Assembly (NCBI RefSeq): GCF_000830005.1
Contig: NZ_CP010407.1
Location: forward strand, 2,213,001-2,277,000
Origin: Streptomyces vietnamensis
GTDB lineage: Bacteria > Actinomycetota > Actinomycetes > Streptomycetales > Streptomycetaceae
Direction of reading: 5' to 3'
Length of the DNA: 64,000 nt
Of the stretch, positions 2,988-35,970 are shown piece by piece. The translations under genes and the position numbers were made by a program. The stretch's first letter is position 1. The number at the start of each line of letters is the position of its first letter. The notes under the pieces are model-generated. The model was not told the DNA's origin. It saw nothing but the letters and a program-made list of their open reading frames with translations, and searched no databases.

Positions 2988-3023
2988 GGGACCGGGCCGC
3001 CGAGGGTTCGGCGGCCCGGTCCC
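2988..3023. terminator. Bidirectional terminator hairpin
   Basis: A perfect 16-bp stem (2988-3003 paired with 3008-3023) with a GGGT loop, sitting between two convergent genes (ends at 2937 and 3057). It can serve both directions. Confidence 0.85.
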
Positions 3024-3056
3024 GTTGGGCGGGGTGAGCGTCCGTCAGGCCGCCGC

Positions 3057-9613: not shown

Positions 9614-10510
9614 ATGACGAACAACACGACTCCGTCCACTGATACGACGATATTCCAGCTCGGCGGGGACCTGCCGGTCCGGCGTGTCGGGTACGGCACG
9701 ATGCGACTCGCCGACGGTCCCGGCGATCCGACCGGCCCGGAGGCCCGCATCTGGACGGCCCCGGCCGACCGGGCGGCGGCGGTGGACCTGCTCCGGACGG
9801 CCGCCGAGGCGGGCGTCACCCTCTTCGACACGGCCGACGCGTACGCCCTGGGAGCCGGCGAGGAGCTGCTCGCCGAGGCGCTGCACCCGTACGGCGACGG
9901 GGTCGCGGTGGCCACCAAGGTCGGCGTGGTCCGGCCCTCCCCCACCGAGTGGGTGCCGCTGGGCCACCCCGCCTATCTGCGCCAGCAGGCCGAGCTGGGC
10001 CTGCGCCGGCTGCGTACGGAGCGGATCGACCTCCTCTACCTCCACCGTCTGGACGAGAACGTCCCGGTCGCCGAGCAGGTCGGCGCCCTGAAGCGGCTCC
10101 AGGAGGAGGGCAAGGTCCGGCACATCGGGCTCTCGGAGGTGACGGTCGAGCAGCTCACCGAGGCCGAGGCGACGGCCCCGATCGCGGCGGTGCAGAACCT
10201 CTACAACCTGGCGACCCGCGACCACGAGCCGGTCGTCGAGCACACGGCCGGGCGCGGGATCGCGTTCGTCCCCTTCTTCCCGGTCGCCATGGGCGGGCAC
10301 GCGGGTCCGGACGGTCCGGTCGCCCGGGTGGCCCGCGAGGTCGGGGCGACCCCGTCCCAGACGGCCCTGGCGTGGCTGCTCCACCGGGCCCCGCACATCC
10401 TCCCGATCCCGGGTACGTCCTCGGCGGCCCACCTGGTGGAGAACCTGGGCGCGCTCGACGTCGCGCTCACCGAGGAGCAGTTCGCCCGACTGGCCCGAGA
10501 GGTCTCATGA
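9614..10510 (+). CDS. Aldo/keto reductase
   Basis: A 298-residue NADPH-dependent TIM-barrel oxidoreductase. Catalytic tetrad candidates are visible: FDTADAY (Asp, Tyr), VATKVG (Lys), and LLYLHRLD (His). The cofactor-binding end is LPIPGTSSAAHL. It probably reduces aldehydes or ketones in response to the stress sensed by the divergent MerR protein. It has no Shine-Dalgarno and sits right behind a MerR-type promoter, so it is probably leaderless. Its last codons overlap the convergent VWA gene by 6 bp. Confidence 0.92.
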   Translation: MTNNTTPSTDTTIFQLGGDLPVRRVGYGTMRLADGPGDPTGPEARIWTAPADRAAAVDLLRTAAEAGVTLFDTADAYALGAGEELLAEALHPYGDGVAVATKVGVVRPSPTEWVPLGHPAYLRQQAELGLRRLRTERIDLLYLHRLDENVPVAEQVGALKRLQEEGKVRHIGLSEVTVEQLTEAEATAPIAAVQNLYNLATRDHEPVVEHTAGRGIAFVPFFPVAMGGHAGPDGPVARVAREVGATPSQTALAWLLHRAPHILPIPGTSSAAHLVENLGALDVALTEEQFARLAREVS

Positions 10511-11224
10511 CCGTACGACGCCCTGGGCGCGGGCCGCGGCGAGCCAGGCGGGGAACTCGGAGACGAGCCGGTCGTACAGCTCCGCGTCCGGGACCCGGCT
10601 CGGGTCCTGGCCCGCGTGGAAGAAGCCGGCATTGTCGAGGGGCCGCTTCGCCGGCACGTCCAGCTCGTCGAGCCGGCGCAGGAACTCGAACTGCCGGCTT
10701 CCGGGGTCGCCGAAGCCGATGAACTGCCAGAAGATGGGCAGCCGGGCCGCCTTGCAGACGTACCGCTCGGCGGCGAGCTTGTTGATCGGCCCTCCGTCGG
10801 TCTGGAAGACGACGAGCGCGGGGGCGGTGGAGCCGCTGTCCAGGTAGTGGTCGATGACGGCGTCCATGGCGAGGTGGTAGCTCGTCTTCCCCATGTGGCC
10901 GAGTCCGGCGACGATCCGGTCGATCCTGCCGACGTGGTCGTCGAGCCGGATGTCGGTCTCGGCGTCGATGTCGGTGGAGAAGAACACCACCGGCACCCGC
11001 CCGTCGTCGTCGAGGTGCGCGGAGAGCCCCAACACCCGGTCGGCGAGGGCCTGCACGGTGCCGTTGGCGTAATAGGGCTTCATGGAGCCCGAGTAGTCGA
11101 CGACGAGGTAGACGGCGACCCGCTGCCCGCTGATCCCGTGCCGTTCGAGGGAGGCCCCGGCCTCCTTGTAGAGGCTCACGAGCGCGGGCGCGGTCTCCTC
11201 GACCTTGCGCAGGTTCAGTGCCAT
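10505..11224 (-). CDS. VWA-domain protein, TerF-like
   Basis: 239 residues, a von Willebrand A fold with a MIDAS site: DYSGSMKP (about 43-50) gives the DxSxS motif, and downstream Thr (GKTS) and Asp (FQTDGG) positions complete the metal site. It resembles the VWA part of tellurium-resistance TerF proteins (MALNLRKVEETAPALVSLYKEA), though no other ter gene is present here. The ATG at 11224 abuts the TAG stop of the padR gene with no gap; the ribosome site GGAGGGGGAG lies inside padR, so translation is coupled. Function beyond metal-dependent binding is unknown. Confidence 0.85.
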   Translation of the reverse strand: MALNLRKVEETAPALVSLYKEAGASLERHGISGQRVAVYLVVDYSGSMKPYYANGTVQALADRVLGLSAHLDDDGRVPVVFFSTDIDAETDIRLDDHVGRIDRIVAGLGHMGKTSYHLAMDAVIDHYLDSGSTAPALVVFQTDGGPINKLAAERYVCKAARLPIFWQFIGFGDPGSRQFEFLRRLDELDVPAKRPLDNAGFFHAGQDPSRVPDAELYDRLVSEFPAWLAAARAQGVVRS

Positions 11225-11836
11225 CTACCGCTCCCCCTCCAACTCCTCGATGTCCGCGAGCATGGCGTCGGCCAGGTCGCGTTCGGCCGTGTAGTACCGC
11301 TCGGCCCAGGCGAGGGTGAGCCGGGGGTACGCCCAGGCCTCGTCCGCCCCCGCGTCCGCCACGTCGGCCTCGGCGCGCTGCCGCATGCGCTCGGCGTACT
11401 CCCGGTGCGCGGCCAGGATCTCCCGCATCCGCTCGGGTTCGAGGAGGTGTCCGAGCCAGAGCCGCAGCATCGGCCCGTGCTTGAGGACGGGCGGGTCGAG
11501 GGGGGCCGTGCGGGCCCAGGTGCGGACGGCGTCGAGGCCTTCGTCGGTGATCCGGTAGACGCGCTTGTCGCGGGTGCCGGCCTCGGGGGCGACGAGCCGC
11601 GAGGTGGCGTAGCCGCTGTTCTCCAGGCGCTTGAGCTCGCTGTAGATCTGGCTGAAGGAAGGGCTCCAGTAGAAGAGGCCGAGGGACCGGTCGGACCACT
11701 TCTTGACGTCGTAGCCGGACAACTCCCGTCCGTGGGAGAGCAGTCCGAGCACCGCCCAGCTGGTCGCGGGAAGCCCTGGCACGCTCTCTCGGTCCACCAC
11801 GGACGGAAGTCTACGGCCCTTCCCCCTGGTGACCAT
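11225..11836 (-). CDS. PadR-family transcriptional regulator
   Basis: About 203 residues from ATG 11836; a start at GTG 11800 is equally plausible. The PadR winged helix is at about 20-95 (ATSWAVLGLLSHG, GYDVKKW, YWSPSFSQIYSELKRLE, TRDKRVYRIT), followed by a C-terminal helical dimerisation domain. It forms an operon with the VWA gene (zero spacing) and is divergent from the LLM oxidoreductase at 11896. A dyad in the gap could be its operator, so it may control the flavin oxidoreductase as well as itself. Confidence 0.88.
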   Translation of the reverse strand: MVTRGKGRRLPSVVDRESVPGLPATSWAVLGLLSHGRELSGYDVKKWSDRSLGLFYWSPSFSQIYSELKRLENSGYATSRLVAPEAGTRDKRVYRITDEGLDAVRTWARTAPLDPPVLKHGPMLRLWLGHLLEPERMREILAAHREYAERMRQRAEADVADAGADEAWAYPRLTLAWAERYYTAERDLADAMLADIEELEGER

Positions 11837-11864
11837 GCCTGCTAGAAGTATTTCGATTAGGCAT
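11835..11864. promoter_or_regulatory. PadR operator candidate
   Basis: ATGCCT (11835-11840) and AGGCAT (11859-11864), 6-bp arms 18 bp apart, lie in the 59-bp gap between divergent padR and the LLM oxidoreductase gene. An inner CTA/TAG pair extends the symmetry. Confidence 0.5.
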
Positions 11865-11895
11865 AGAAGCCGGTCTTCCCCGGGAGGAGCGTCCC

Positions 11896-13035
11896 GTGAA
11901 GTTCTCCATGATCTTCGAAGCACAGCTCGTCGACCCGACCCCCGCCCGCGAACACCAGGTCCTCCACGACTGCGTCGAACAGGCCGTCCTCGCCGAGGAG
12001 ATGGGCTTCGACCGGATCTGGGCGGTCGAGCACCACTCCCTCGTCCAGTACGCCCACATGAGCGCGTCCGAGATCTTCCTGACCTGGGTCGCGGCCCGCA
12101 CCCGGACCATCCGCGTCGGCCACGGCGTCGTCACCATGCCCTTCGGCTACCAGCACCCGGTCCGGGTCGCCGAGCGCGCCGCCATGCTCGACGTGCTCTC
12201 CGGAGGCCGGGTCGACGTGGGCGCCGGCCGGGGCGCGACCCGCCAGGAGACCCGGATGTTCGGGGTGCGCCCGGAGGACACCCGCCCGCAGACCGAGGAG
12301 GCCCTGCGGATCTTCGCCTCGGCCTGGCGGGAGCCGGAGTTCGAGTGGCACGGCACCCTCGACATCGGGCCCGGCGCGGTCCTCCCCCGCCCCGTACAGA
12401 CCCCGCATCCGCCGCTCTTCATGGCCTGCTCGCAGCACGACTCCCTCCGGCAGGCCGCCGAACTCGGCATCGGCGCCCTGGTGATGGGCTTCGCGGGCGC
12501 CGAGGACGTGCGGGCGATGCGCGCGGTGTACGACCAGGCCCTCGCCTCCAGGGACGGCTCCCGGTTCGTCTCCACGGAGGTCAACGACCACTTCTCCGCC
12601 CTCTGCCCGACGATCGTCCTCGACGACGCCGCCCGCGCGCTCCGGCTCGGCACCCGGGGCCAGCGCTTCTTCGCCGAGTCGATCGCCCACTGGTACGGCG
12701 GCGCGCCCGCCCCGACGGGCTACGCGGAGGACGAGGACCACAGCGGGGCGCTCGACGAGCAGCGGCAGAAGCTGATCGCCCGCCTGCACGAGGCGGACAT
12801 CCCCGCCCGCCCGGTCGACACGGGCACGTACAACACCGACCACGCCTACGGGGACGCGGCGACGGCGATCGCCTACGTCGAGCGGCTCCGGGAGATCGGC
12901 GTGGACGAGGTGATGTGCCTGATCCAGATGGGCACGGTGCCGCAGGAGGTCTGTCTGGAGACGATCCGGCAGTGGGGCGAGCACGTCATCCCGCACTTCC
13001 GCGCACCGCGGGCGTCCGCACCGGGCTCCGCCTGA
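11896..13035 (+). CDS. LLM-class flavin-dependent oxidoreductase
   Basis: A 379-residue luciferase-like monooxygenase-fold (TIM barrel) protein using F420 or FMN. Family features include MGFDRIWAVEHH near the N-terminus, GRVDVGAGRGATRQE (about 107-121) and a C-terminal region DEVMCLIQMGTVP typical of alkanal-monooxygenase-like members. The GTG start at 11896 has a strong GGGAGGAG ribosome site. It is divergent from padR with a dyad between. Substrate unknown. A terminator-like inverted repeat follows at 13042. Confidence 0.9.
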   Translation: MKFSMIFEAQLVDPTPAREHQVLHDCVEQAVLAEEMGFDRIWAVEHHSLVQYAHMSASEIFLTWVAARTRTIRVGHGVVTMPFGYQHPVRVAERAAMLDVLSGGRVDVGAGRGATRQETRMFGVRPEDTRPQTEEALRIFASAWREPEFEWHGTLDIGPGAVLPRPVQTPHPPLFMACSQHDSLRQAAELGIGALVMGFAGAEDVRAMRAVYDQALASRDGSRFVSTEVNDHFSALCPTIVLDDAARALRLGTRGQRFFAESIAHWYGGAPAPTGYAEDEDHSGALDEQRQKLIARLHEADIPARPVDTGTYNTDHAYGDAATAIAYVERLREIGVDEVMCLIQMGTVPQEVCLETIRQWGEHVIPHFRAPRASAPGSA

Positions 13036-22122: not shown

Positions 22123-22851
22123 CTACAACGCGGCCCCGAAGAGCATGCCGAGCCCGTACGTGACGGCCGCGGCGGCACCGCCCAGGACGAGCTGGCGCAT
22201 GCCGCTGAAGAGCCAGCCGCGGGCGGTCACCCGGGCCACCAGGGCGCCGCAGGCGAAGAGCCCGAGGAGCGCGAGCAGCACGGCGGGCCAGAGCGCGGTC
22301 GCCCCGAGCAGGTACGGCAGGACGGGGAGGAGCGCGCCGAGCGCGAAGGAGCCGAAGGAGGAGACGGCGGCGACCAGCGGCGACGGCAGGTCGTCCGGGT
22401 CGATGCCGAGCTCCTCGCGGGCGTGGATCTCCAGGGCCTGCTCGGGGTCCTTCGACAGCTGCATCGCGACCTCGCGGGCGAGCGCGGGCTCGACACCGCG
22501 GGAGACGTAGAGCGCGGCGAGCTCCTCCATCTCGTCGATCGGGTGCTTGCGCAACTGACGGCGCTCGACGTCCAGTTCCGCCTGGACGAGCTCGCGCTGC
22601 GAGGCGACGGAGGTGTACTCGCCGGCCGCCATGGAGAACGCGCCGGCCGCGAGACCCGCGAGGCCGGTGATGACGACGGTCCCCGAGGAGACCGCGCCAC
22701 CGGCGACACCGGTCATCAGGGCGAGGTTGGAGACGAGTCCGTCCATCGCGCCGAACACCGCCGGGCGCAGCCAACCGCCGTTCACGTCGCGGTGCGTGTG
22801 GTTGTCGCGGTGGGCCTCGTGCAGTGGCGCCTGGGCTTCGATGATGGACAT
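22123..22851 (-). CDS. VIT/CCC1-family iron or manganese transporter
   Basis: 242 residues, an integral membrane protein of the VIT1/CCC1 family that moves Fe2+ or Mn2+. The N-terminus is His-rich (HEAHRDNHTHRD), the family signature VFGAMDGLVSNLAL is at about 29-42, GAFSMAAGEYTSVASQREL lies in the second membrane region, and a cytoplasmic metal-binding helical stretch (VERRQLRKHPIDEMEELA, ALEIHAREELG) precedes the last three membrane helices. The ATG at 22851 follows GAGGGGAG; an upstream in-frame ATG at 22938 is unlikely. Its promoter faces away from the ADP-ribosylglycohydrolase operon. Confidence 0.9.
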   Translation of the reverse strand: MSIIEAQAPLHEAHRDNHTHRDVNGGWLRPAVFGAMDGLVSNLALMTGVAGGAVSSGTVVITGLAGLAAGAFSMAAGEYTSVASQRELVQAELDVERRQLRKHPIDEMEELAALYVSRGVEPALAREVAMQLSKDPEQALEIHAREELGIDPDDLPSPLVAAVSSFGSFALGALLPVLPYLLGATALWPAVLLALLGLFACGALVARVTARGWLFSGMRQLVLGGAAAAVTYGLGMLFGAAL

Positions 22852-22993
22852 GGTTCTCCCCTCGTTCCGGCGGGCCGGGATGCACCCGCCGCCCCCAACA
22901 CGTCGAAAATACGCCCGATGTAAGGGGCGCGCCAGCAAGGTAGGCCGTACTTACTAAGGCCCGCCTCAGTGAGGGCAACCCAACCTGGCGAGG

Positions 22994-23009
22994 TGTCAGC
23001 CGGGTGACA
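22994..23009. promoter_or_regulatory. Dyad upstream of the ADP-ribosylglycohydrolase operon
   Basis: TGTCA-N6-TGACA (GTGTCAGCCGGGTGACAG in full), perfect 5-bp arms, about 95 bp upstream of the first gene. GntR-type dimers bind sites of this general form. No regulator gene is adjacent. A GGGGCGCC/GGCGCCCC hairpin (23062-23083) lies in the putative leader. Confidence 0.4.
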
Positions 23010-23103
23010 GAGACGTTTCTTCGGCGAGTTCGCGGCCCGTGGTGGCACAGATCCAGGCATCGGGGCGCCGCCGTCGGCGCCCCCACCGAGGAAGGGGCGC
23101 GAG

Positions 23104-24099
23104 ATGGTGAACAGCACGGCCTGCGACACGCGTGAACGGGCGAGAGGGGCGCTCCTCGGCCTCGCCGTCGGCGACGCGCTCGGCGCCCCCGCCGAGAACA
23201 TGAAGCCCTCCGAGATCCGCCGCCGCTGGGGCCGCATCGAGGGCTTCGTGACGGACAGTCCGGCGGGCACGGACGACACGGAGTACGCGATCTTCTCGGG
23301 GCTGCTCCTCGCCCGGCACGGCTCGGCCCTCACCGTCCACCACGTCGAACGGGCCTGGCACCACTGGATCGCCGACCTCGACGAAGGCCCCTTCCGCGGC
23401 GCGGGCTTCTCGGAGCGCGGCACCCTGGAGAACCTCCGCCGGGGCCTGGCGGCCCCCATCTCGGCCCAGCACCGCCACGCGTGGAGCGACGGCCTCGCGA
23501 TGCGCGCGGCACCCTTCGGGGTCTTCGCCGCCGGACGCCCGGCGGAGGCGGCGCGCCTCGTCGCGATCGACGGCAGCGTCAGCCACGACGGGGAGGGCAT
23601 CTACGGGGGCCAGGCGGTGGCGGCGGGCGTGGCGGCGGCGATGACGGGAGCGACGGTCACCTCGGTGATCGCAGCGGCCCTGTCGGTCGTCCCCATGGAC
23701 TCCTGGACGGCGCGCTCGCTGCGCCGTGCGGTCGTCGCGGCCCAGCGCGTCCAGCCGGACCCGCTCACCCGCGAACGCCAGGTCCGCTCGGCGGTCGTCA
23801 TCGGCGGCTATCCCTGGACGGACCTGGCCCCGGAGGCGGTGGGCCTGGCGTTCGGCGCCTTCGCGGCGGCCCGCGGCGACTTCCGCACGGCGGTCCTGAC
23901 GGCCGTCAACATGGGCCGCGACGCCGACACGACGGCAGCGGTGGCGGGCGCCCTGGCGGGCGCGGCGGGCGGCGTGGACGCGATCCCGCCCGACTGGGCC
24001 AAGGCCATCGCCCCGGTGACGGGCAGCTGCCTCCCGTCGATGCGCGGCTACCACGTCCTGGACGTGGCAGACCTCCTGACCCCGGAGGAGGCGGCATGA
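23104..24099 (+). CDS. ADP-ribosylglycohydrolase family protein, paralogue 1
   Basis: 331 residues, an all-helical DraG/ARH fold with two metal ions. Signatures are intact: GLAVGDALGAP (about 19-29), TDDTEYAIFSG (about 57-67; metal-binding TDDT) and the C-terminal MGRDADTTAAVAGA (about 270-283; metal-binding DxDT). The family cleaves N- or O-ribosyl bonds, classically removing ADP-ribose from Arg, Ser or small molecules. It is the first gene of a seven-gene operon, with ATG 23104 after AAGGGG. The stop overlaps the next start (ATGA). The true substrate is not known. Confidence 0.9.
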   Translation: MVNSTACDTRERARGALLGLAVGDALGAPAENMKPSEIRRRWGRIEGFVTDSPAGTDDTEYAIFSGLLLARHGSALTVHHVERAWHHWIADLDEGPFRGAGFSERGTLENLRRGLAAPISAQHRHAWSDGLAMRAAPFGVFAAGRPAEAARLVAIDGSVSHDGEGIYGGQAVAAGVAAAMTGATVTSVIAAALSVVPMDSWTARSLRRAVVAAQRVQPDPLTRERQVRSAVVIGGYPWTDLAPEAVGLAFGAFAAARGDFRTAVLTAVNMGRDADTTAAVAGALAGAAGGVDAIPPDWAKAIAPVTGSCLPSMRGYHVLDVADLLTPEEAA

Positions 24100-25637
24100 G
24101 CGCGGACGTGACGACGACCGCGACCGACACCGCCGGGGGCGCCGCGGGCCTCACGGACGCCGCGGGCCTCGCGGGCGCTGCGGGCGCTGCCGCCCCCGCC
24201 GTGGGCGAGGCCCTCGGGACGGACACCATTGCCGCCACCACCGCTGTGGGCAATCGTTCCGCAGGGCGAGGGGGGTCCCCCCTGCTCGAGCGAAGCCGAG
24301 AGCTTGGGGGAGGGTGGGCACAGCCCCCGATGCCGGGTTCCGGCCCCCTGCTCGGTGACCCGCGGGACCAGATGCCGCCGGTGCCGGGCACGGACGAGCT
24401 GGGCCTGGCCCCGCAGGGCCCCGTCCCGGTGCGGGCCACCGGCTCCTGGGGCGGCGGCGCCCAAGAGGTCCCGCAGCCCGACGCCCCTCGCAGGGCCGGG
24501 CGCGACGCCGTCGAGGGCCTCCTCCTCGGGCTCGCCGCAGGCGACGCCGCAGGCTGGCCCGCCGCCCGGCACCGCGCCGCCCGCATGCCCGAATGGACCC
24601 GCCGCCTCACCCGCGAACTCGACACCTTCGCCGAGCAGAACGCGACGACCACCCTCCCCGTCCCCATCGCCCTCAACCAGCCCCCGGAGCCCCTCCGTCT
24701 CGGCCCCTCCGACGACGCCGAGTGGGCGGTCTTCACCGCCGAGGCGATCCTCACCGCCGACGGCCCGGTGTTCGCCAACCTCCCCCCGGACCGCCGTCTC
24801 CGCGCCGCCGTCGACCTCGCCTGGAACGCCCTCGCCGGCCAGGTCGCCGCCGCCGCCGACCGCGCCCCCGAGGTCGAGTCGGCCGTACTGCCGCTCCGCG
24901 CCCGGATCTCGGTCCGCGCGGGCCTCGGCAACCTCGCCACCGGCCTGCGTCCGCCCGCGACGGGCCACGACAACCCGCACTTCTTCGACGACGCGGCCTG
25001 CGTCCGTGCCGCGGTCCTCGCCGTCGTCCACCCCGGCGACCCCCGCGCGGCCGCCGAACTCGCCGAGTTCGACGCCCGGTACACCCAGGACGGCGACGGC
25101 GTGCACGGCGCCCGTGCGACGGCGGCGGCCGTCGCCGCGGCCCTCGGCGGGGCGACGGTCGACGAGGCCGTCGAGGCGGCGCTCGCCGAACTCCCGCCCG
25201 TCACCGAGATCGGCCGCAACGCCCGGCACGCCGTGAAGCTGGCCCAGGCCGCCGATTCGGCCTTCGAACTGGTCCCGCTCCTGGAGCACCAGATCGTGGA
25301 CCACGTCTACAGCTACGGCATCGCCGCCGCCGAGACCCTCCCGGTCGCCCTGGCCCTCGCCACCGCCGCCCGGGGCGAGATGACGGCGGCGGTACCGTCC
25401 GCCGCCTGCCTCTCCCGGGTCGCCGACTCGGCCCCGGCGCTCGCGGGCGCGCTCACCGGCGCGCTGGGCGGCGGCCGTTCGGTCCCGGCGAGCTGGCGCG
25501 AGGCGTGCAGGACGCTCGCGGGCTGCGCGCTGCCCCGGCTCGCGGGTACGGACCTGGTGGAACTCGCCGGGCTGCTCGGAGCCACGGAACCGGCCACCCC
25601 AGGTGGACAATTCCGACATGACACCCACACTGGATGA
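24096..25637 (+). CDS. ADP-ribosylglycohydrolase family protein, paralogue 2 (divergent)
   Basis: 513 residues. The ARH-like domain begins at about 135 (GLLLGLAAGDAAGWPAA). The first metal motif has become PSDDAEWAVF, and the C-terminal motif is CLSRVADSAPALAGA in place of GRDxDT, so part of the metal-binding set is missing and the protein may be inactive or altered. Residues 1-130 are a disordered Ala/Gly/Pro-rich extension. Codons 50-77 are read from an 80-bp intergenic-type repeat (24244-24323). It starts by ATGA overlap with paralogue 1 and overlaps paralogue 3 by 20 bp. Confidence 0.82.
   Translation: MSADVTTTATDTAGGAAGLTDAAGLAGAAGAAAPAVGEALGTDTIAATTAVGNRSAGRGGSPLLERSRELGGGWAQPPMPGSGPLLGDPRDQMPPVPGTDELGLAPQGPVPVRATGSWGGGAQEVPQPDAPRRAGRDAVEGLLLGLAAGDAAGWPAARHRAARMPEWTRRLTRELDTFAEQNATTTLPVPIALNQPPEPLRLGPSDDAEWAVFTAEAILTADGPVFANLPPDRRLRAAVDLAWNALAGQVAAAADRAPEVESAVLPLRARISVRAGLGNLATGLRPPATGHDNPHFFDDAACVRAAVLAVVHPGDPRAAAELAEFDARYTQDGDGVHGARATAAAVAAALGGATVDEAVEAALAELPPVTEIGRNARHAVKLAQAADSAFELVPLLEHQIVDHVYSYGIAAAETLPVALALATAARGEMTAAVPSAACLSRVADSAPALAGALTGALGGGRSVPASWREACRTLAGCALPRLAGTDLVELAGLLGATEPATPGGQFRHDTHTG
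24244..24323. repeat. Nested repeat hairpin inside coding sequence
   Basis: Outer ends CTGTGGGCAATCGTTCCGC and GGGTGGGCACAG are those of the 202-bp element's left arm. Between them (about 24268-24312) sits a different hairpin with CCCCCC/GGGGGG arms around CTCGAGCGAAGCCGAGAGC. It is read in frame as part of paralogue 2. Confidence 0.8.
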
Positions 25638-26769
25638 CCGGATCACCGGCAGCCTCCTCGGGGCCGCCGTCGGCGACGCGCTCGGCGGCCCCGTGGAGGG
25701 CTACACCCCCGAGCAGATCCTGGAGCGCCACGGCGGCCGCGTCACCGGGATCGTCGGCCCCTGGAACGGCGGCGACTGGCGCACCGCCCGGCCCATCGCG
25801 CCGTACCACAAGGGCGACGGGCACGTCACCGACGACACCTTGATGACCCATGCGCTGATCCGGGTGTACGAGAAGGTCCGCGGCCACCTCGACGCGTACG
25901 CGGTCGCGGACCACCTCGTCCCCGAGCTCATGGGCCGTATCGTCTGGATCCCGGAGCTGGAGTCGGAGGCACTCCCCCTCCAGCGGATCTTCCTGGCCGA
26001 GAAGTGGATCGTCACCCGCCTCCACTACGGTCACGCCGACCCCCGCGAGGCCGGCAACGGCAACGTCGTCAACTGCGGTGCGGCGATGTACATGGCGCCG
26101 GTCGGCCTGGTCAACGCCGCCCACCCGGCGGCCGCGTACGCCGAGGCGATCGACCTGACGGGCGCGCACCAGTCCTCGTACGGCCGGGAGGCGGCGGGTG
26201 TCTTCGCGGCGGCGGTCGCGGCGGCCTGCGCGCCGGGCGCGACGCCGACGTCGGTGGTGGAGGAGGCCCTGTCCCTGGCGAAGGACGGGACGCGCGCGGC
26301 GATCGAGGCGGTCACCGAAGTGGCGTCCGGACAACGGGACTTCGAGTCCGCCCTCGTCCCCCTCCGCAGGGCGGTGGCCCCCTTCGACACGGTCGGCCCC
26401 GACTACCGCGCCCCCTCCCTGGGCGCCCGCCGCCCCTCCCGCCTGCACGCGATCGAGGAACTCCCGATCGCCCTCGGCATGCTCCTGGTCGGCGAGGGCG
26501 ACTTCCGCCGTACGGTCCTGGGCGCGGTCAACTACGGCCGCGACTGCGACTCGATCGCCACGATGGCGGGCGCGATCGTGGGCGCGCTGCACGGCGAGTC
26601 GGCGGTCCCCCCGGAATGGGCCAAGCAGGTGGCGGAGGCGAGCCGCCTGGACCTCCACGCCCCGGCGAGAACGCTGGCCGCGGTGGCCCGCGAGATCTTC
26701 GCGGCGGACACCGCCGCCCGCCGGTCCCACGAATCGGCCTTCGCGACCCTGACGAGCGCGGGCCGATGA
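25618..26769 (+). CDS. ADP-ribosylglycohydrolase family protein, paralogue 3
   Basis: 383 residues from ATG 25618, which follows AGGTGG; GTG 25603 is an alternative. All family motifs are present: LLGAAVGDALGGPVEG (about 14-29), HVTDDTLMTHAL (about 69-80) and NYGRDCDSIATMAGAIVGA (about 303-321). It is the longest catalytic domain of the four, with an insertion around IVWIPELESEALPLQ. Likely an active dinuclear-metal ribosyl hydrolase. It overlaps paralogue 2 by 20 bp and paralogue 4 by 4 bp. Confidence 0.9.
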   Translation: MTPTLDDRITGSLLGAAVGDALGGPVEGYTPEQILERHGGRVTGIVGPWNGGDWRTARPIAPYHKGDGHVTDDTLMTHALIRVYEKVRGHLDAYAVADHLVPELMGRIVWIPELESEALPLQRIFLAEKWIVTRLHYGHADPREAGNGNVVNCGAAMYMAPVGLVNAAHPAAAYAEAIDLTGAHQSSYGREAAGVFAAAVAAACAPGATPTSVVEEALSLAKDGTRAAIEAVTEVASGQRDFESALVPLRRAVAPFDTVGPDYRAPSLGARRPSRLHAIEELPIALGMLLVGEGDFRRTVLGAVNYGRDCDSIATMAGAIVGALHGESAVPPEWAKQVAEASRLDLHAPARTLAAVAREIFAADTAARRSHESAFATLTSAGR

Positions 26770-28469
26770 CCCTCCGCGTGACCTGGGTCCAACCGGAGGA
26801 CCTGGTGGGCCACGAACTCCGCCAGGCGTCGGAGGACGGCCGCGACGCGAGGGCCTTGGCGGCCCGCTGGACGGCAGCGGGCGGCCCGCCGTCCCCGGAG
26901 ACGGCCGGCGCGTCCCCGGTCCCCCGCCCGGACCTCCGCCCCCTGGCGGAAGAACTCCTGGACACCCTGACGTCCCTCCCGTCCCCCCTGTCGGCCCACG
27001 AGCCCACCGACCTCCCCTCGATCCAGGCTTTGACGGCCCCCCACACCGCCCCTCCCCCAAACTCTGGCGAGACCGGGCGCTCCGCCCCCGAACCCCCGCC
27101 CGCCCCCGCGCGGGCCCGCATCAAGGCGGGCGGCGCCCCCGCCCGTTGGGGGCCCGCGCCCGCGCTGGGCGGCGCCCCCGTCCACCCCCGTGTGGGCAAT
27201 CGTCCCGCAGGGCGGGACGGGTGGGCACACGGGACGGCGCCCCCAGCCGGGCCCAGGCTCCCGGGCCTGGACCCGCACCCCAGCAGCGGCGCACCGGCAG
27301 TGCGGGTCCAGGCGCGGGAGCCTCTGGCGCCGGCAGGGCGCGGGTCCGTTGTGCCCACCCGTTCCGCCCCAGCGGAACGACTGCCCACAACGGTCCGGTC
27401 CGGCGAGGGCGCCGCCCTCCGGGACCGGCTGCACGCCGCCTGGCTGGGACGGGCCGTCGGGTGCCTGCTCGGCAAGCCCGTCGAGAAGCTCCCCCTCCCC
27501 GCCATCCGCGCCCTCGCCCGCGCCGCCGGCAACTGGCCCCTCGCCACCTGGTTCACCGCCCGCGGCGTCCCGCCGGAGCTGCTCGCCGCCCATCCCTGGA
27601 ACCGTCGTTCCGCCGCCACCTCCCTCGCCGAGAACATCGACGGCATGCCCGAGGACGACGACCTCAACTACCCCCTCCTCAACCTGCTGCTCCTCCAGCG
27701 GTACGGCCGCGACTTCACCACCGCCGACGTCGCCCGCCTCTGGCTCGACGAGCTCCCCGCCGGCCGCACCTTCACGGCCGAGCGCGTCGCCTACCGCAAC
27801 CTCCTCGACGGCGTCGAACCCCCGCTGACCGCCGTCCGCCGCAACCCCTTCCGCGAGTGGATCGGCGCCCAGATCCGGGCCGACGTCCACGGCTGGACCC
27901 ATCCGGGCGACCCGGTGGCCGCCGCCGCGCAGGCGTACCGGGACGCGGTGCTCACGCACACCGCCAACGGCGTCTACGGCGCCATGTTCGTCGCCGCCGT
28001 CCTCGCCGCCGCGGCGACCGGGGCGGCGGACGTCCATCAGTCCCTCGCCGCCGGTCTCGGCGTGGTCCCGCCGCGCTCGCGCCTCGCGGAGGCCGTTCGG
28101 CGGGGCATCGCGTACGCCACCACGGAGCCCGACTTCGACACCGTCGTCGACCGCCTGCACGCCGAACTCGGCGGGTACCACTGGGTGCATGCCGTCCCCA
28201 ACGCCGCCCTGCTCGCCGCCGCCCTCACCCACGCCGACGGCGACTTCTCGCGCTCCGTCTGCGCGGCGGTCTCGGGCGGCTGGGACACCGACTCCAACGG
28301 CGCCACCGCCGGTTCGGTCGCCGGGCTGCTCGCCGGGCACCCGGACCGGCTGCCCGAGCGCTGGACCTCCCCCCTCAAGAACCGTCTGGCGACCTCGGTG
28401 CCGTCCTTCGACGGCATCGGCTTCGACACCCTGGCCGAACTGACACACACGGAGGCAGTACGCCCATGA
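26766..28469 (+). CDS. ADP-ribosylglycohydrolase family protein, paralogue 4, two-part
   Basis: 567 residues. N-terminal module (about 1-95, TWVQPEDLVGHELRQASEDG) of unknown fold; long linker; ARH domain from about 218 (WLGRAVGCLLGKPVEK, MPEDDDLNYPLLNLLLL at about 294-310, GGWDTDSNGATAGSVAG near the C-terminus). The acidic motif is EDDDL rather than TDDT, marking a distinct ARH subfamily. Residues about 142-209 in the linker are translated from a 202-bp palindromic repeat (27190-27391). It starts by ATGA overlap and ends by ATGA overlap with the PfkB kinase gene. Confidence 0.85.
   Translation: MTLRVTWVQPEDLVGHELRQASEDGRDARALAARWTAAGGPPSPETAGASPVPRPDLRPLAEELLDTLTSLPSPLSAHEPTDLPSIQALTAPHTAPPPNSGETGRSAPEPPPAPARARIKAGGAPARWGPAPALGGAPVHPRVGNRPAGRDGWAHGTAPPAGPRLPGLDPHPSSGAPAVRVQAREPLAPAGRGSVVPTRSAPAERLPTTVRSGEGAALRDRLHAAWLGRAVGCLLGKPVEKLPLPAIRALARAAGNWPLATWFTARGVPPELLAAHPWNRRSAATSLAENIDGMPEDDDLNYPLLNLLLLQRYGRDFTTADVARLWLDELPAGRTFTAERVAYRNLLDGVEPPLTAVRRNPFREWIGAQIRADVHGWTHPGDPVAAAAQAYRDAVLTHTANGVYGAMFVAAVLAAAATGAADVHQSLAAGLGVVPPRSRLAEAVRRGIAYATTEPDFDTVVDRLHAELGGYHWVHAVPNAALLAAALTHADGDFSRSVCAAVSGGWDTDSNGATAGSVAGLLAGHPDRLPERWTSPLKNRLATSVPSFDGIGFDTLAELTHTEAVRP
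27190..27391. repeat. 202-bp near-palindromic element, copy A (in coding sequence)
   Basis: Both ends carry about 50-bp imperfect inverted repeats (GTGTGGGCAATCGTCCCGC at left; complement of GTTGTGGGCAGTCGTTCCGC at right). Each end is itself a small hairpin, and the middle holds another inverted pair (GGCTCCCGGGCCTGGACCC with GGTCCAGGCGCGGGAGCC). About the first 70 and last 50 bp match copy B at 35689-35890, in the same orientation. Confidence 0.92.
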
Positions 28470-29386
28470 CCAGCATCGTCGTGCTCGGCAGCACGAACAT
28501 GGATCTCGTCGTCTACGTGCCGCGGGCCCCCGCCCTCGGCGAGACGGTCACCGGCCGCTCCTTCCGTACGGTCCCCGGCGGCAAGGGCGCCAACCAGGCC
28601 GTCGCCGCCGCCCGCGCGGGCGGCGAGGTGGCGATGATCGGCGCGGTCGGCGCCGACGGCTTCGGGACACAGCTACGCGCCACCCTGGAGCACTGCGCGG
28701 TGGACACCGATCTGCTGCGTACCTCCGAGGGCCCCTCCGGCACCGCCCATGTCGTCGTCGACGACGAGGGCGGCAACGCGATCGTCGTCGTCCCCGGCGC
28801 CAACGGCACCGTCACCTCCCTCACCCACGGCGACGAGGCCCTCATCGGCACCGCCGACACCCTGCTCCTCCAGCTCGAACTCCCCCTCTCCGTCGTCGTC
28901 GAGGGCGCCGTCACCGCCCGCCGGCTCGGTGTCCGCACGGTCCTCACCCCCGCCCCCACGCAAGCCCTCCCGCCGGAACTGCTCGCCGCCACCGATCTGT
29001 TGGTGCCCAACGAGCACGAGGCCGCCGCGCTCACCGGACTCACCGACCCGCGCGAAGCCGCTCAGGCCCTGCTGCGGGACGTCCCCGAGGTGGTCGTCAC
29101 CCTGGGCGCGGCCGGCAGCCTGTACGCGGTGCGCGGCGCCGAACCGGTCGCCGTCCCCGCGCCCCGGGTCCGGGCCGTGGACACCACGGGAGCGGGCGAC
29201 ACCTTCGTCGGCGCCCTCGCGGTCGCCCTCGGCGAGGGCCGTCCCGCCCCGGAGGCGCTCGCCTGGGCGCAGACGGCCGCCGCGCTCTCCGTCCGGCGCG
29301 AGGGCGCGTCGACCTCGATGCCGTACCGCGTCGAGATCGAGGCCGCCTTCCGCTCCCCCGACTCGCTGGAGGCGAACGCCGTATGA
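28466..29386 (+). CDS. PfkB-family sugar kinase (ribokinase-like)
   Basis: 306 residues; phosphorylates a sugar or nucleoside with ATP. PfkB signature 1 GGKGANQAVAAARAGG is at about 36-51 and signature 2 DTTGAGDTFVGALAVAL, with the catalytic Asp, at about 242-258. The N-terminus MTSIVVLGSTNMDLV is typical of ribokinases. In this operon it plausibly phosphorylates ribose (or a ribosyl product) released by the four glycohydrolases; that is inference from context. ATGA overlaps join it to both neighbours. Confidence 0.92.
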   Translation: MTSIVVLGSTNMDLVVYVPRAPALGETVTGRSFRTVPGGKGANQAVAAARAGGEVAMIGAVGADGFGTQLRATLEHCAVDTDLLRTSEGPSGTAHVVVDDEGGNAIVVVPGANGTVTSLTHGDEALIGTADTLLLQLELPLSVVVEGAVTARRLGVRTVLTPAPTQALPPELLAATDLLVPNEHEAAALTGLTDPREAAQALLRDVPEVVVTLGAAGSLYAVRGAEPVAVPAPRVRAVDTTGAGDTFVGALAVALGEGRPAPEALAWAQTAAALSVRREGASTSMPYRVEIEAAFRSPDSLEANAV

Positions 29387-30585
29387 CCACCGAGACGTCC
29401 ACGGCGCCCCTGCACGGGCTGCGCGTCCTGGATCTCGCGACCCTCTTCGCCGGCCCGCTCGCGGCCATGATGCTGGGCGACTTCGGCGCCGACGTCGTCA
29501 AGGTCGAGCATCCCCGCAAGCCGGATCCGTCCCGTGGCCACGGCCCCGCCAAGGACGGCATCGGCCTGTGGTGGAAGGTCCTCGGCCGGAACAAGCGGGC
29601 GATCACCCTCGACCTGTCCTCGCCGGGCGGCCGCGACACGCTGCTCGCGCTCGCCGCCGACGCGGACGTGATCGTGGAGAACTTCCGCCCGGGCACCCTG
29701 GAGCGCTGGGGTCTGGGCTGGGAGGAGCTGTCGACCGTCAACCCGCGTCTGGTGCTGACCCGGGTCACCGGCTTCGGCCAGTTCGGCCCGTACGCCCACC
29801 GCCCCGGCTTCGGCACCCTCGCCGAGGCGATGAGCGGCTTCGCCGCGATCACCGGCGAACCGGACGGCCCGCCGACCCTGCCGCCCTTCGGCCTCGCCGA
29901 CTCGATCGCCGCCCTCGCCACGGCGTACGCGGTGATGACCGCGCTCACCGCGAGGACGGCGACCGGCCGCGGCCAGGTCGTCGACATGGCGATCATCGAA
30001 CCGATGCTCTCCGTCATCGGACCCCACCCCCTCTGGTACGACCAGCTCGGTTACGTCCAGCCCCGGACCGGCAACCGCTCCCGCAACAACGCCCCGCGCA
30101 ACACCTACCGGACCGCCGACGGCTCCTGGGTCGCCGTCTCCACCTCCGCCCAGTCGATCGCCGAGCGGGTGCTGCGGCTCGTCGGCCGCCCGGAGCTGAT
30201 CGACGAGCCGTGGTTCGCCGACGGCACGGGCCGGGCCGAGCACGCGGACGTCCTCGACGAGGCGGTCGGCTCGTGGATCGCCCGCCACACCCGCGACGAG
30301 GCGATGGCGGCCTTCGAGAAGGCGGAGGCGGCCATCGCCCCCGTCTACGACGTCCGGGACGTCGTCGCCGACCCGCAGTACCAGGCGCTCCGCACCGTGA
30401 CCGAGGTGCAGGACCCCGAACTCGGCCCGATCAAGATGCAGAACGTCCTCTTCCGCCTCTCCGAGACCCCCGGCGCCATCCGCTGGTCCGGCCGCCCGCA
30501 CGGCGCCGACACCACCGCCGTCCTCTCCGAACTCGGCCTCACCCCCGCCGAGATCGACGCCCTCCGCGAGCAAGGAGCGGTATGA
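29383..30585 (+). CDS. Class III CoA-transferase (CaiB/BaiF family)
   Basis: 400 residues. It transfers CoA between an acyl-CoA and a carboxylic acid through an enzyme-bound anhydride. Family marks: GLRVLDLATLFAGPLAAMML and FGADVVKVEHP at the N-terminus, NKRAITLDL, and the catalytic Asp in GRGQVVDMAIIEPM (about 197-210). The partner lyase is the next gene. It probably activates a hydroxy- or dicarboxylic acid as its CoA thioester. Four-base overlaps on both sides. Confidence 0.92.
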   Translation: MTTETSTAPLHGLRVLDLATLFAGPLAAMMLGDFGADVVKVEHPRKPDPSRGHGPAKDGIGLWWKVLGRNKRAITLDLSSPGGRDTLLALAADADVIVENFRPGTLERWGLGWEELSTVNPRLVLTRVTGFGQFGPYAHRPGFGTLAEAMSGFAAITGEPDGPPTLPPFGLADSIAALATAYAVMTALTARTATGRGQVVDMAIIEPMLSVIGPHPLWYDQLGYVQPRTGNRSRNNAPRNTYRTADGSWVAVSTSAQSIAERVLRLVGRPELIDEPWFADGTGRAEHADVLDEAVGSWIARHTRDEAMAAFEKAEAAIAPVYDVRDVVADPQYQALRTVTEVQDPELGPIKMQNVLFRLSETPGAIRWSGRPHGADTTAVLSELGLTPAEIDALREQGAV

Positions 30586-31562
30586 GCCCCCTCAGCGGCC
30601 CCGACGAGGGGAAACGGACGGGCGCGGGCCCGCAGCCGGGTGCCGGGGGCGCCCCCGCACACCCCCTCGCGCCCCTCACCTGGCTGTACGCCCCCGGCGA
30701 CCGCCCCGACGTCGTGTGCAAGGCCATGTCCTCCGGCGCCGACGTCGTGATCGTCGATCTGGAGGACGCGGTCGCCCCTGACCGCAAGGCGTACGCCCTC
30801 GACGCCACGGCCGATCTCCTCGCGGACGTCCACCCCGTCCCGGTGCACGTCCGCGTCCACACCCCGCGCGACATCCCCACCCTGGCCCCCCTCCCCGGCC
30901 TCTGCGGTCTCCGTGTACCCAAGGTGACACACGCCACTGACATCCACCGGATCGCCCGGCTCGCCCCGGGCCTCGCGCTCTATCCGCTCCTGGAGAGCGC
31001 CCTCGCCGTGGAGCACGCCTACGCCATCGCCGCCGCCCATCCCTCCGTGCGCGGCATCGCCCTCGGCGAGGCCGATCTCCGCGCCGACCTGGGGGTACGG
31101 GAGGACAGCGGCCTCGACTGGCCGCGCGGGCGGGTGGTGGTCGCGGCCCGCGCGGCCGCCCTCCCCCCGCCGGCCCAGTCCGTCCATCCGGACATCCGCG
31201 ACCTGGACGCGCTGGCCGCCGGCTGCGCCCGGGGCCGGTCCATGGGCTTCTTCGGCCGGGCGGCCATCCACCCCCGCCAGCTCCCGGTCATCGAGCGCGC
31301 CTATCTCCCCACCCCCGCGGAGGTCGACGCGGCCCGTGAGGTCGTCGCGGCGGCCGCGACCGAGCGGGGCGCCCTCGCCCTCCCGGACGGCCGCTTCGTC
31401 GACGCGGCGGTGGTGGAGGGCGCCCACCGGGTCCTCGCCCTCGCGGCCCGCGCCGGCTGCCCCGTACCCCCGCATGCGAAAGGGCCGCCGGAACCTCTCG
31501 GTCCCGGCGGCCCTCGTGATGTCCGTGCCGGTCAGCTCTTGGCGGCCGACCCGGCGCCGTGA
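30582..31562 (+). CDS. CitE-like CoA-ester lyase (HpcH/HpaI aldolase family)
   Basis: 326 residues, a Mg2+-dependent TIM-barrel lyase cleaving (3S)-malyl-, citramalyl- or related CoA esters. Motifs: LYAPGDRPDVVCKAMSSGAD, VDLEDAVAPDRK (substrate/metal region), PLLESALAVEHA (Glu ligand), LGEADLRADLG (Asp ligand) and GFFGRAAIHPRQL. It has a 30-residue low-complexity N-terminal extension. The last 25-30 codons run through the terminator hairpin of the convergent lgt gene and overlap lgt by 31 bp. It is the last gene of the operon and starts by ATGA overlap. Confidence 0.88.
   Translation: MSPLSGPDEGKRTGAGPQPGAGGAPAHPLAPLTWLYAPGDRPDVVCKAMSSGADVVIVDLEDAVAPDRKAYALDATADLLADVHPVPVHVRVHTPRDIPTLAPLPGLCGLRVPKVTHATDIHRIARLAPGLALYPLLESALAVEHAYAIAAAHPSVRGIALGEADLRADLGVREDSGLDWPRGRVVVAARAAALPPPAQSVHPDIRDLDALAAGCARGRSMGFFGRAAIHPRQLPVIERAYLPTPAEVDAAREVVAAAATERGALALPDGRFVDAAVVEGAHRVLALAARAGCPVPPHAKGPPEPLGPGGPRDVRAGQLLAADPAP
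31480..31516 (-). terminator. lgt terminator embedded in the lyase 3' coding end
   Basis: A perfect 11-bp stem AGGGCCGCCGG / CCGGCGGCCCT with a 12-nt loop; on the minus strand it is followed by TTTCGC. It may stop transcription from both sides. Confidence 0.75.
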
Positions 31563-32509
31563 TCGGCGCCGTTGCCTTCGGTTTCCTTGTCCTCGTCCCC
31601 GGGCCCGTCGGTCTTGTCCTCGACGGCGTCCGCGGCCTCGGCGTCGGCGGCCTCCGCGCCCTCGGCGCCGTCCGCCTTCTCGGCGGCCTTCTCCGCGGCC
31701 CTCGGCTCCACGATCTCCTCACGGCCCGGCCGGAAGCGGGGCGAGACGATCAGGTAGATCACGGCCGCCAGGCCGACGAAGATCGCGGTCCACACGTTGA
31801 GCCGGAGGCCCATGATGTGGTGCGCCTCGTCGACGCGCAGCGCCTCCGTCCAGACGCGGCCCGAGCAGTACGCGGCGACGTACAGGGCGAACGCCCGCCC
31901 GTGGCCGAGCTTGAAGCGGCGGTCGGCCCAGATGACCAGGAAGCCGACGGCGACGTTCCACAGCGACTCGTACAGGAAGGTCGGGTGGTAGAGGCCGGCC
32001 TCGCGGTTGGGGCCCTCGGTGATCTTCAGCGCCCACGGCACGTCGGTCGGCTTGCCGTAGAGCTCCTGGTTGAACCAGTTGCCCCAGCGGCCGATGGCCT
32101 GGGCGAAGGCGATTCCGGGGGCGATGACGTCCGCGTACACGGGCAGGGAGATCCCGCGCCGACGGCAGCCGATCCAGGCGCCCACCGCGCCGAGCGCGAT
32201 GGCGCCCCAGATGCCGAGGCCGCCCTCCCAGATCTTGAAGGCGTCGACCCAGTTCTCACCCTCGCTGAAGTACAGCTGGTAGTCGGTGATCACGTGGTAG
32301 AGGCGTCCGCCGACGAGGCCGAAGGGCACCGCCCAGACGGCGATGTCGGCCACGGTGCCGGCTGTGCCGCCCCGGGCGATCCAGCGCTTGTTGCCGAGCC
32401 AGACGGCGACGAAGACACCGATGATGATGCAGAAGGCATAGCCGCGCAGCGGGATCGGTCCGAGGTGGATCACGCCGGTCGACGGGCTGGGAATGTAGGC
32501 AAGGTCCAT
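31532..32509 (-). CDS. lgt: Prolipoprotein diacylglyceryl transferase
   Basis: 325 residues, inner membrane. It transfers diacylglyceryl from phosphatidylglycerol to the lipobox Cys of prolipoproteins. The signature GRWGNWFNQELYG is at about 144-156; a conserved Tyr/His membrane segment (PLRGYAFCIIIG) is near the N-terminus and VGGRLYHVITD follows; seven hydrophobic segments. After about 265 comes a long acidic tail (repeated Glu-Ala-Ala-Asp), common in actinobacterial Lgt. ATG 32509. It lies downstream of the thioredoxin-like gene on the same strand. Confidence 0.96.
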   Translation of the reverse strand: MDLAYIPSPSTGVIHLGPIPLRGYAFCIIIGVFVAVWLGNKRWIARGGTAGTVADIAVWAVPFGLVGGRLYHVITDYQLYFSEGENWVDAFKIWEGGLGIWGAIALGAVGAWIGCRRRGISLPVYADVIAPGIAFAQAIGRWGNWFNQELYGKPTDVPWALKITEGPNREAGLYHPTFLYESLWNVAVGFLVIWADRRFKLGHGRAFALYVAAYCSGRVWTEALRVDEAHHIMGLRLNVWTAIFVGLAAVIYLIVSPRFRPGREEIVEPRAAEKAAEKADGAEGAEAADAEAADAVEDKTDGPGDEDKETEGNGADHGAGSAAKS

Positions 32510-35585: not shown

Positions 35586-35970
35586 GCGGATGCTCCTCGC
35601 GGGGCGGGTGTGCCCCGGGATACGTGGGGTTGATGGTCACGGTATGCGCGCGACCGGTCACGTTTACGGCAACGCCGCACCCTGCCCCGTGTGGGCAATC
35701 GTCCCGCAGGGCGGGACGGGTGGGCACACGGGACGGCGCCCCCAGCCGGGCCCAGGCTCCCGCGCCTGGACCCGCACCGACCGCGCGGCGCGCTCCCGGT
35801 GCGGGTTCAGGCGCGGGGAGCTCGGGCGCCGCTATGGGCGCCGTCCGTTGTGCCCACCCGTTCCGCCCCAGCGGAACGACTGCCCACAACGGGGGTGGGC
35901 GGGTGGGTACACAACGATTGCCCGCACTGCGGTGGGCCGAAGGGCCAGGGCTGGAGGGCTGGGCGTTGCT
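35586..35970. other. 385-bp gap inside the trp cluster (trpM to trpB)
   Basis: It contains the 202-bp repeat copy B (35689-35890), a degenerate half-end next to it (about 35905-35930, GATTGCCCGCAC), and the trpB leader (35586-35688). No gene is visible. Confidence 0.8.
35689..35890. repeat. 202-bp near-palindromic element, copy B (between trpM and trpB)
   Basis: Same length, ends and orientation as copy A at 27190. Ends GTGTGGGCAATCGTCCCGC and CGGAACGACTGCCCACAAC. The inner pair GACCCGCACC / GGTGCGGGTT sits within longer complementary arms. As RNA the whole element can fold into one long hairpin with two end hairpins. Confidence 0.92.

Follow-up and report, generated by a model that had tools for sequence, protein, structure and literature searches.

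A conserved seven-gene block with four ADP-ribosylglycohydrolase homologues in Streptomyces vietnamensis: a candidate pathway for a ribosylated organic acid

Introduction

What do four different ADP-ribosylglycohydrolase (ARH) homologues do in one block with a sugar kinase and two coenzyme A (CoA) enzymes? The question is raised by a 64,000-nucleotide stretch of the Streptomyces vietnamensis genome (NCBI RefSeq assembly GCF_000830005.1, contig NZ_CP010407.1, positions 2,213,001 to 2,277,000), here called the window. It holds seven such genes, named g1 to g7 in block order along the + strand (Table 1): four ARH homologues (g1-g4), a kinase (g5), a CaiB-type class III CoA-transferase (g6) and a CitE-like lyase (g7). 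An original prediction, made from the sequence of the window, had read the block as one coherent catabolic route, with the sugar going to the kinase and the acid to the CoA branch. The conservation of the set and the ribokinase identity of g5 support this route. We consider it rather probable that the seven genes supply the enzymes of a sugar-type pathway that takes up and breaks down an extracellular organic-acid ribofuranoside.

In this pathway, an ATP-binding cassette (ABC) importer of the CUT1 type, with a LacI repressor in the relatives, would bring in an extracellular compound of ribofuranose and an organic acid. The importer genes of the pathway would lie apart from the enzymes in the window genome. 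The products of g1, g3 and g4 would hydrolyse the ribosyl bond or bonds through a two-metal site gripping the ribose cis-2,3-diol, and g2 would be a non-catalytic partner, most likely of g1. The ribose would be phosphorylated to ribose-5-phosphate by g5; in genomes without g5, the ribokinase of the ribose operon would take over this step. The acid, as the putative aglycone, would be converted by g6 to a CoA thioester, which g7 would cleave in a retro-aldol reaction to a short acyl-CoA and an oxo acid.

Results

Layout and conservation of the gene block

All seven genes were found on the + strand, each with an ATG start and a TGA stop. Successive genes overlap by 4, 20, 4, 4, 4 and 4 bp; the five 4-bp overlaps are ATGA and the 20-bp overlap is the g2/g3 junction, exactly as first described. 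Every Pfam match was above its cut-off, with ADP_ribosyl_GH (PF03747) in each of the four ARH homologues, followed by PfkB, CoA_transf_3 and HpcH_HpaI. The guanine-plus-cytosine (G+C) content at codon position 3 was 0.91-0.96 for every gene, and the ratio of nonsynonymous to synonymous substitution (dN/dS), calculated against three close relatives, was 0.11-0.53 for all seven, as seen under purifying selection. Therefore, g1-g7 bear no sign of decay. No promoter-like and no terminator-like site was detected in 22900-31700 (0 and 0, compared to 0.0 and 1.2 in shuffles), by a scan that is weak in high-G+C DNA.

In a first round, 22 of 41 genomes, including that of the window, gave a match at E<=0.001, some through a paralogue alone, and 21 regions were read. 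Seventeen of these loci held g1-g4, g6 and g7, and 16 of the 17 adjoined VIT1 and gltB, 15 with lgt on the opposite side and one ended by a contig edge. Gene order was kept in all 18 first-round loci having both g4 and g6. A second set of 15 loci was picked by a match to g2, including seven from one sister genus (g247, putatively Kitasatospora) and one from another (g257). In these eight loci, the genes lay in the same order at a different site, without gltB or lgt in the 16 kb read. For gene content, 34 loci from 34 genomes were judged, each with a g4 or g2 match and of adequate length (L029-L045, L047, L048 and L078-L092; L046 and L049, which ends after g3, were excluded). CaiB and CitE genes adjoined the ARH genes in 33 of the 34. 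The exception was G012, in which g4 and g5 lie together at another place and g1 stands alone at the usual site. The kinase was present in 27 loci and missing from L038, L041, L042, L045, L048, L082 and L090. The conserved order and the recurrence at another site in the sister genera show that the seven-gene unit is real and beyond chance.

Across the family, the g2 model matched in 40 of 150 genomes and 3 of 17 genera (E<=1e-60). In a 396-genome sample of the phylum, g2 was found in 14 genomes at E<=1e-10 and at full score (>700 bits) in 10, all of the window's genus; g3 was found in 10 (E<=1e-60). Also, an acyl-CoA thioesterase-like gene and a gene for 6-phosphogluconate dehydrogenase were seen 3' of g7 in three g247 loci (L078, L084 and L089), as open reading frames (ORFs) and, for L078 only, by Pfam.

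The importer and its LacI regulator

The original prediction had noted no transporter or regulator and supposed that the substrate is made inside the cell. This part did not survive, as LacI and a CUT1 importer are part of the unit in other phyla, in the sister genera and, within the window's own genus, in one genome (G014). In g247 and g257, genes for LacI, two permeases and a solute-binding protein (SBP) lay upstream of g1 on the same strand; Pfam identified LacI, the first permease (BPD_transp_1) and the SBP (SBP_bac_1) at the sister-genus loci, and the second permease was read from its ORF. A search with transporter queries found LacI, permease and SBP immediately upstream of g1 in all four loci that held g1 and its upstream flank (L117, L118, L119 and L153). 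G014 had the same fused LacI-importer-operon layout, without the kinase and away from gltB. The importer linked to the operon was of the CUT1 type, and it shared an operon with LacI in g247, g257, G014 and the Trueperaceae.

In the window genome, one clear SBP orthologue (525 bits, the next match 48) was located with a permease beside it at C1:6.58 Mb, separate from the operon. In G023, a permease and an SBP gene (L152, 8478-11529) occupied the operon's usual place between lgt and VIT1/gltB. This genome had no g4 match genome-wide and no g1-g7 match at the gltB/lgt site, and the lone importer genes are probably a remnant of the fused unit. Over 36 genomes, both operon and SBP were present in 16, the operon only in 4, the SBP only in 3 and neither in 13 (p=0.0006, kinship uncorrected). 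Within the genus (27 genomes), the respective counts were 13, 4, 3 and 7 (p=0.04, again uncorrected for kinship). Two genomes with partial operons, G010 and G012, were scored as operon-less. Since the importer was linked to the operon in relatives, stood at the operon's site in G023 and co-occurred with the operon, the operon substrate is most likely imported.

Upstream of LacI, L117 and L118 had a LacI-type site, CTGTAAACGTTTACAG; variants of it were found in L119 and L153, and L152 kept a remnant. Two palindromes were tried as marks of a regulon and rejected. In the ordinary genomes of the genus, CTGTAAACGTTTACAG was seen upstream of neither g1 nor the standalone importer, and TGTCRNCCGGGTGACA had a single exact place in the genome and two more with one mismatch (control, 2).

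Recurrence in other phyla

A scan of one genome per species in 84,980 species was conducted with a g4-type alignment, and 80 of at least 573 confirmed loci were kept. Among these 80, tblastn at 1e-6 found permease genes in 23, SBP in 15, LacI in 14, PfkB in 11, g1-type ARHs in 8, g2-type in 7 and g3-type in 6. A relaxed search for CitE on seven loci added two (L220 and L240).

A Trueperaceae metagenome-assembled genome (MAG) of the Deinococcota (L220) had the order LacI-permease-permease-SBP-g1-g2-g3-g4-CaiB-CitE, the CitE being found by relaxed search (31%, E 2.7e-12) and also by Pfam. A second Trueperaceae MAG (L233) had LacI-g1-g2-g3-g4 on a 4.9-kb contig. The actinomycete Enemella dayhoffiae (L239) had CaiB (68%, at the locus edge)-g2-g1 divergent from LacI-permease-SBP-g3-g4. 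In Brevibacillus sp. SYP-B805 of the Bacillota (L240), the order was SBP-permease-permease-g2-g1-g4-g3-LacI-CitE-CoA ligase-DUF624-PfkB kinase, the SBP and second permease by ORF reading. No CaiB was found in this locus, and a CoA ligase with ATP-grasp_5 and Succ_CoA_lig domains stood beside CitE in its place. Nonomuraea ceibae (L211) had g2-g3-g4-PfkB at a contig edge. By ORF reading, a g4-type ARH was directly followed by a ribokinase-like gene in one distant actinobacterium (G075) and came after an importer in another (G049). In the Trueperaceae, Brevibacillus and Enemella, all four ARH types occur at one locus, and the core is found in two other phyla.

Two loci had other genes in place of the CoA branch. 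A Bacillota MAG (L231) had LacI-HAD-permease-permease-SBP-g1-g2-g4-g1'-AtuA-DUF4387 (AtuA and DUF4387 in region 10322-12042), and a Streptosporangiaceae MAG (L174) had PfkB, UPF0261 and phosphoenolpyruvate (PEP)-hydrolase-like genes beside g1-g2 (region 685-3674). This suggests that the AtuA/DUF4387 and UPF0261/PEP-hydrolase-like pairs also process the acid half. The different acid-processing genes of other lineages point to one of two things: a shared acid that is handled in several ways, or aglycones that differ.

The CoA branch

The best NCBIfam match of g6 was SucGlutTfsCaiB, at 239 of the 750 required, and no named CaiB equivalog cut-off was reached. For g7, RipC scored 125.8 of 375 and CitE 94.9 of 443.4, both below their equivalog cut-offs. 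The nearest relatives of g6 were SUGCT/formyl-CoA-type transferases and those of g7 were RipC-type lyases, with 8khl and 9nzb as its nearest solved structures. RipC and SUGCT-type CoA enzymes (itaconate, hydroxymethylglutarate, glutarate) count among the nearest named relatives of g7 and g6; in contrast to them, g6 and g7 score far under the equivalog cut-offs and the block has no hydratase gene. Because g6 and g7 pass no equivalog cut-off, a C4-C6 hydroxy-dicarboxylate as the acid is only a guess.

Another possible explanation is that the ARHs and the ribokinase salvage the ribose of ribosides and that CaiB and CitE serve a second, unrelated acid, being merely co-transcribed or co-induced. 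The kinase and CoA genes do vary independently: all seven of the 34 judged loci without the kinase kept CaiB and CitE, G012 has g4 and the kinase together without them, and most of the 80 g4-type loci (of at least 573) lack both. E. coli yegTUV (PMC10819704) and a staphylococcal ARH-permease-ribokinase set (PMC3321955), as described in the accessible parts of these papers, also have no CoA branch. However, CaiB and CitE accompany the ARHs in all judged loci except G012 and in the Trueperaceae, and in Brevibacillus, CitE and a CoA ligase are in the same place. We consider two separate substrates to be unlikely.

The four ARH types and the g2 pseudoenzyme

In the proposed ribofuranoside pathway, the ARH homologues would act as ribosidases. 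Both dinuclear metal motifs, DD and GxDxD(S/T), were kept in g1, g3 and g4, including the rows from other phyla, and the g1 motifs were kept in all 21 family rows (window included). In g2, SRVADSA was present in 19 of 19 family rows, and the first Asp of GxDxD was lost in all 10 aligned rows from three phyla; the DD was also lost or broken in four rows (L220, L233, L239 and L240). By these residues, g2 is a predicted pseudoenzyme, conserved after the loss of its metal ligands. The four ARH types of the original prediction stood as types, with a full metal site in only three. In the tree of 48 sequences, labelled by best tblastn match and with one fragment dropped, g2 (100/99), g3 (100/100) and g4 (100/100) formed clades, the main g1 clade had 10 rows (97/87), and each of the four clades held rows from Actinomycetota, Deinococcota and Bacillota. 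Three rows labelled g1 fell outside the main g1 clade, and attraction between the long branches of g3 and g4 is possible.

The predicted model of g2 had a mean predicted local distance difference test (pLDDT) score of 61.3, with residues 1-130, 174-204 and 259-295 at <50 and the N-terminal ~130 aa modelled as disordered. Its best Foldseek matches were ARH-fold chains at E 2.6e-4 and up (ARH3 3.0e-4, DraG 3.6e-3). The model of the g4 ARH domain had a pLDDT of 96.8, and its best fold match was 1t5j (MJ1187; template modelling score 0.67/0.79), with further matches to ARH3 and DraG; g4 had no PDB sequence match at E<=0.001. Vertebrate ARH2 is likewise an ARH suspected to be catalytically inactive, according to the available part of PMC7050489. 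In contrast to ARH2, which is outside our tree, g2 is a bacterial pseudo-ARH with its own clade, accompanied by active-type paralogues at every locus aligned.

Six ARH places were found in the genome outside the operon, and the four contexts read (L110 and L112-L114) had no shared gene theme. The g4 paralogue of the genome (45% identical; L110, 9569-13671) adjoins a BCCT betaine-type transporter gene, with a glycerate kinase gene beyond.

For Streptomyces coelicolor, PMC9411070 lists SCO2028-SCO2031 among the DraG/ARH homologues that are still uncharacterised, and PMC5087735 also lists SCO2028-SCO2030. SCO2028-SCO2031 are probably the orthologues of g1-g4, because they are four consecutive ARH tags (PMC9411070, accessible part) and fit the gene numbering. 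The accessible parts of both papers describe these tags solely as putative ADP-ribosylhydrolases and propose no pathway. SCO2034 was not found together with lgt in the open-licence literature.

Alternatively, the four ARHs could do what the family name and the Streptomyces literature take for granted and strip ADP-ribose from a protein, a nucleic acid or a small molecule. Family membership and the intact metal motifs of three of the four are in favour of this, and S. coelicolor has characterised ADP-ribosyltransferases (PMC9411070). We find it very unlikely, since these ARHs are associated with LacI, a ribokinase and a sugar importer, and ARHs release ADP-ribose rather than ribose. Also, we noticed no gene for a transferase, macrodomain or Nudix protein in the flanking ORFs read, part of which were profile-tested. 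The original prediction had allowed for an ADP-ribosylated substrate; purified SCO2028 and SCO2030, probably the orthologues of g1 and g3, showed no activity on uracil-linked alpha-ADP-ribose, the one linkage assayed in the available part of PMC13036486. ARHs grip the cis-2,3-diol of the distal ribose via two metals, and DraG recognises adenine through Tyr212 and the ExxA residue Glu121, as stated in the accessible part of PMC7050489. This ExxA motif was unmatched in g1 in an alignment to DraG (2woc) that had moderate confidence there and left the Tyr212 region unaligned.

The kinase and the identity of the sugar

Returning to the ribofuranoside pathway, g5 passes the ribokinase model TIGR02152 (Table 1), is below the older model PRK11142 (263.9 of 341) and aligns with E. 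coli RbsK across N-x-D, GGKGANQ and AGD. TIGR02152 matches at E<=1e-50 were then surveyed in 12 hand-picked genomes, a small sample with shared ancestry uncorrected. All four genomes with a g4-linked kinase (G000, G004, G019 and G012) had no second match. Six of the seven operon genomes without g5 had a kinase elsewhere, five in a ribose-type operon (G002, G009, G014, G021 and G562) and one (G450) ~1.2 kb upstream of its LacI gene. G023, without the operon, had its kinase in an rbs-type operon. These rbs contexts were read from ORFs; those profile-tested were RbsD and an RbsC-RbsB-like fusion in G009, and the ATPase and LacI in G014. RbsD, a D-ribose pyranase beside the G009 kinase, was above its cut-off. 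The exchange with rbs-operon kinases points indirectly to g5 as a ribokinase-like enzyme predicted to phosphorylate D-ribose. Because the operon kinase and the rbs-operon kinases exchange, which is the best evidence for D-ribose, the sugar released by the ARHs is most likely D-ribose.

A different cis-diol furanose (e.g. apiose), handled by the same pathway logic with a shifted kinase specificity, has little chance: PfkB kinases shift substrates easily and g5 fails PRK11142, but g5 is above the TIGR02152 cut-off, aligns with RbsK in all three motifs and exchanges with the rbs-operon kinase. On its side, the ARH requirement is the cis-2,3-diol (PMC7050489, available part).

Discussion

Several findings weigh against an uptake and breakdown pathway for an acid ribofuranoside. 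Of the 17 genomes of the genus with the operon, 4 had no SBP, the window genome had no clear LacI orthologue (best 39%, 183 bits), and CTGTAAACGTTTACAG was not seen upstream of g1 there. In the CoA branch, g6 and g7 are under every NCBIfam equivalog cut-off, and CaiB was detected in 3 and CitE in 0 of the 80 g4-type loci (of at least 573) at 1e-6, so that most g4-type ARHs among them have no CoA branch nearby. The acid may also differ between lineages, because AtuA and DUF4387 (L231) or UPF0261 and PEP-hydrolase-like genes (L174) stand instead. For the sugar, the kinases replacing g5 are below the TIGR02152 cut-off (231-298 of 299.65, G450 being the lowest and the rbs-operon ones 267-298) and were called RbsK from context and the D-ribose pyranase beside one of them; the 12 genomes were hand-picked, and G010, with a partial operon, had no such kinase at E<=1e-50.

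As the original prediction had supposed, a pathway combining ARH, PfkB kinase, CoA-transferase and lyase was not found in the open-licence literature. We file the block as a variant of the LacI/CUT1 sugar operons with ARH-fold hydrolases and a CoA branch. LacI-regulated CUT1 ABC sugar operons comprise LacI, permeases, SBP, hydrolases and a kinase, as do the block's relatives; the block differs from them by having ARH-fold hydrolases in place of CAZy glycosidases and by the added CoA-transferase and CitE-like lyase. Two smaller sets are similar. E. coli yegTUV, of the GgaR regulon, has a transporter, the ARH YegU and the PfkB kinase YegV in one operon with its own repressor, and its function is stated as unassigned; it differs by its single ARH, a nucleoside:H+ symporter, a GntR-type repressor and the lack of a CoA branch (PMC10819704, accessible part). 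In a staphylococcal cassette chromosome (SCC) element, an ARH lies beside a permease and a ribokinase, as in the block's relatives, but there is one ARH, the permease is nucleobase-type and there is no CoA branch (PMC3321955, available part). As described in these parts, both sets are simpler cousins of the block.

A wider and more tentative proposal, which we regard as possible, is a cross-phylum module for the breakdown of an environmental ribofuranosylated hydroxy acid, with a dedicated ribosidase system made up of three active enzymes of the ARH fold and one conserved pseudo-ARH. If true, many bacterial "ADP-ribosylglycohydrolases" would be sugar-catabolic enzymes and not erasers of ADP-ribosylation. 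Of the eight DraG/ARH proteins of S. coelicolor that the accessible part of PMC9411070 lists as ADP-ribosylhydrolases, four are probably in a sugar-acid pathway and, therefore, ADP-ribosylation signalling in such bacteria may be less extensive than ARH counts suggest. The gene set predicts an extracellular ribosylated acid used across several phyla, and the SBP provides a handle for fishing out the ligand.

Other features of the locus

The block and its surroundings are listed in Table 1. The convergent flanking gene is presumably lgt.

Table 1. Gene block and neighbouring features in the window
Feature	Position	Strand	Assignment and basis
g1	23104..24099	+	ARH, metal motifs intact (GTDDTE, GRDADT); PF03747 207 bits
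g2	24096..25637	+	predicted ARH-like pseudoenzyme; SDDAEW kept, SRVADSA = GxDxD(S/T) without first Asp; PF03747 127.7 bits
g3	25618..26769	+	ARH, motifs intact (VTDDTLMT, GRDCDS); PF03747 186 bits
g4	26766..28469	+	ARH (EDDD, GWDTDS) with N-terminal domain and linker; PF03747 164.4 bits
g4 N-terminal domain, ~106 aa	26766..27083	+	relatives match at about query 1-106
g5, ribokinase	28466..29386	+	TIGR02152 307.4 bits, cut-off 299.65; alignment to E. coli RbsK; exchange with rbs-operon kinases
g6, class III CoA-transferase (CaiB/BaiF)	29383..30585	+	PF02515 419.5 bits
g7, CitE/RipC-like acyl-CoA lyase	30582..31562	+	PF03328 78.6 bits
VIT-family gene, flanking, outside unit	22123..22938	-	PF01988 231.6 bits; remains at gltB where operon missing (L152)
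lgt-like gene, flanking, outside unit	31532..32509	-	convergent; 31-bp overlap with g7
intergenic region VIT1/g1	22939..23103	.	holds TGTCAGCCGGGTGACA; relatives' iron-box-like block falls here
208-bp near-palindromic dispersed repeat	27186..27393	.	in frame within g4; not pathway part

An imperfect palindrome, TGTCRnCCGGGTGACA, is conserved in the VIT1/g1 intergenic region of the window and of many relatives. It has a single exact match in the window genome, as does the 16-mer TGTCAGCCGGGTGACA of this region. Many relatives have an iron-box-like block, AAGGCTnGGCTAACCT, between VIT1 and g1.

The 208-bp repeat has a second copy in the window at 35685-35892, and the copies match their own reverse complement at 77-83%. 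Of 214 first-look candidates in the genome, 40 places scored at 89-100% identity. The copy in g4 lies within the linker, and g4 is 567 aa here compared to 457 aa in a close relative (L030). The N-terminal region of g4 (26766-27398) matched no Pfam family; L211, L220 and L239 have a stretch similar to its N-terminal domain ahead of the ARH domain, as read from ORFs.

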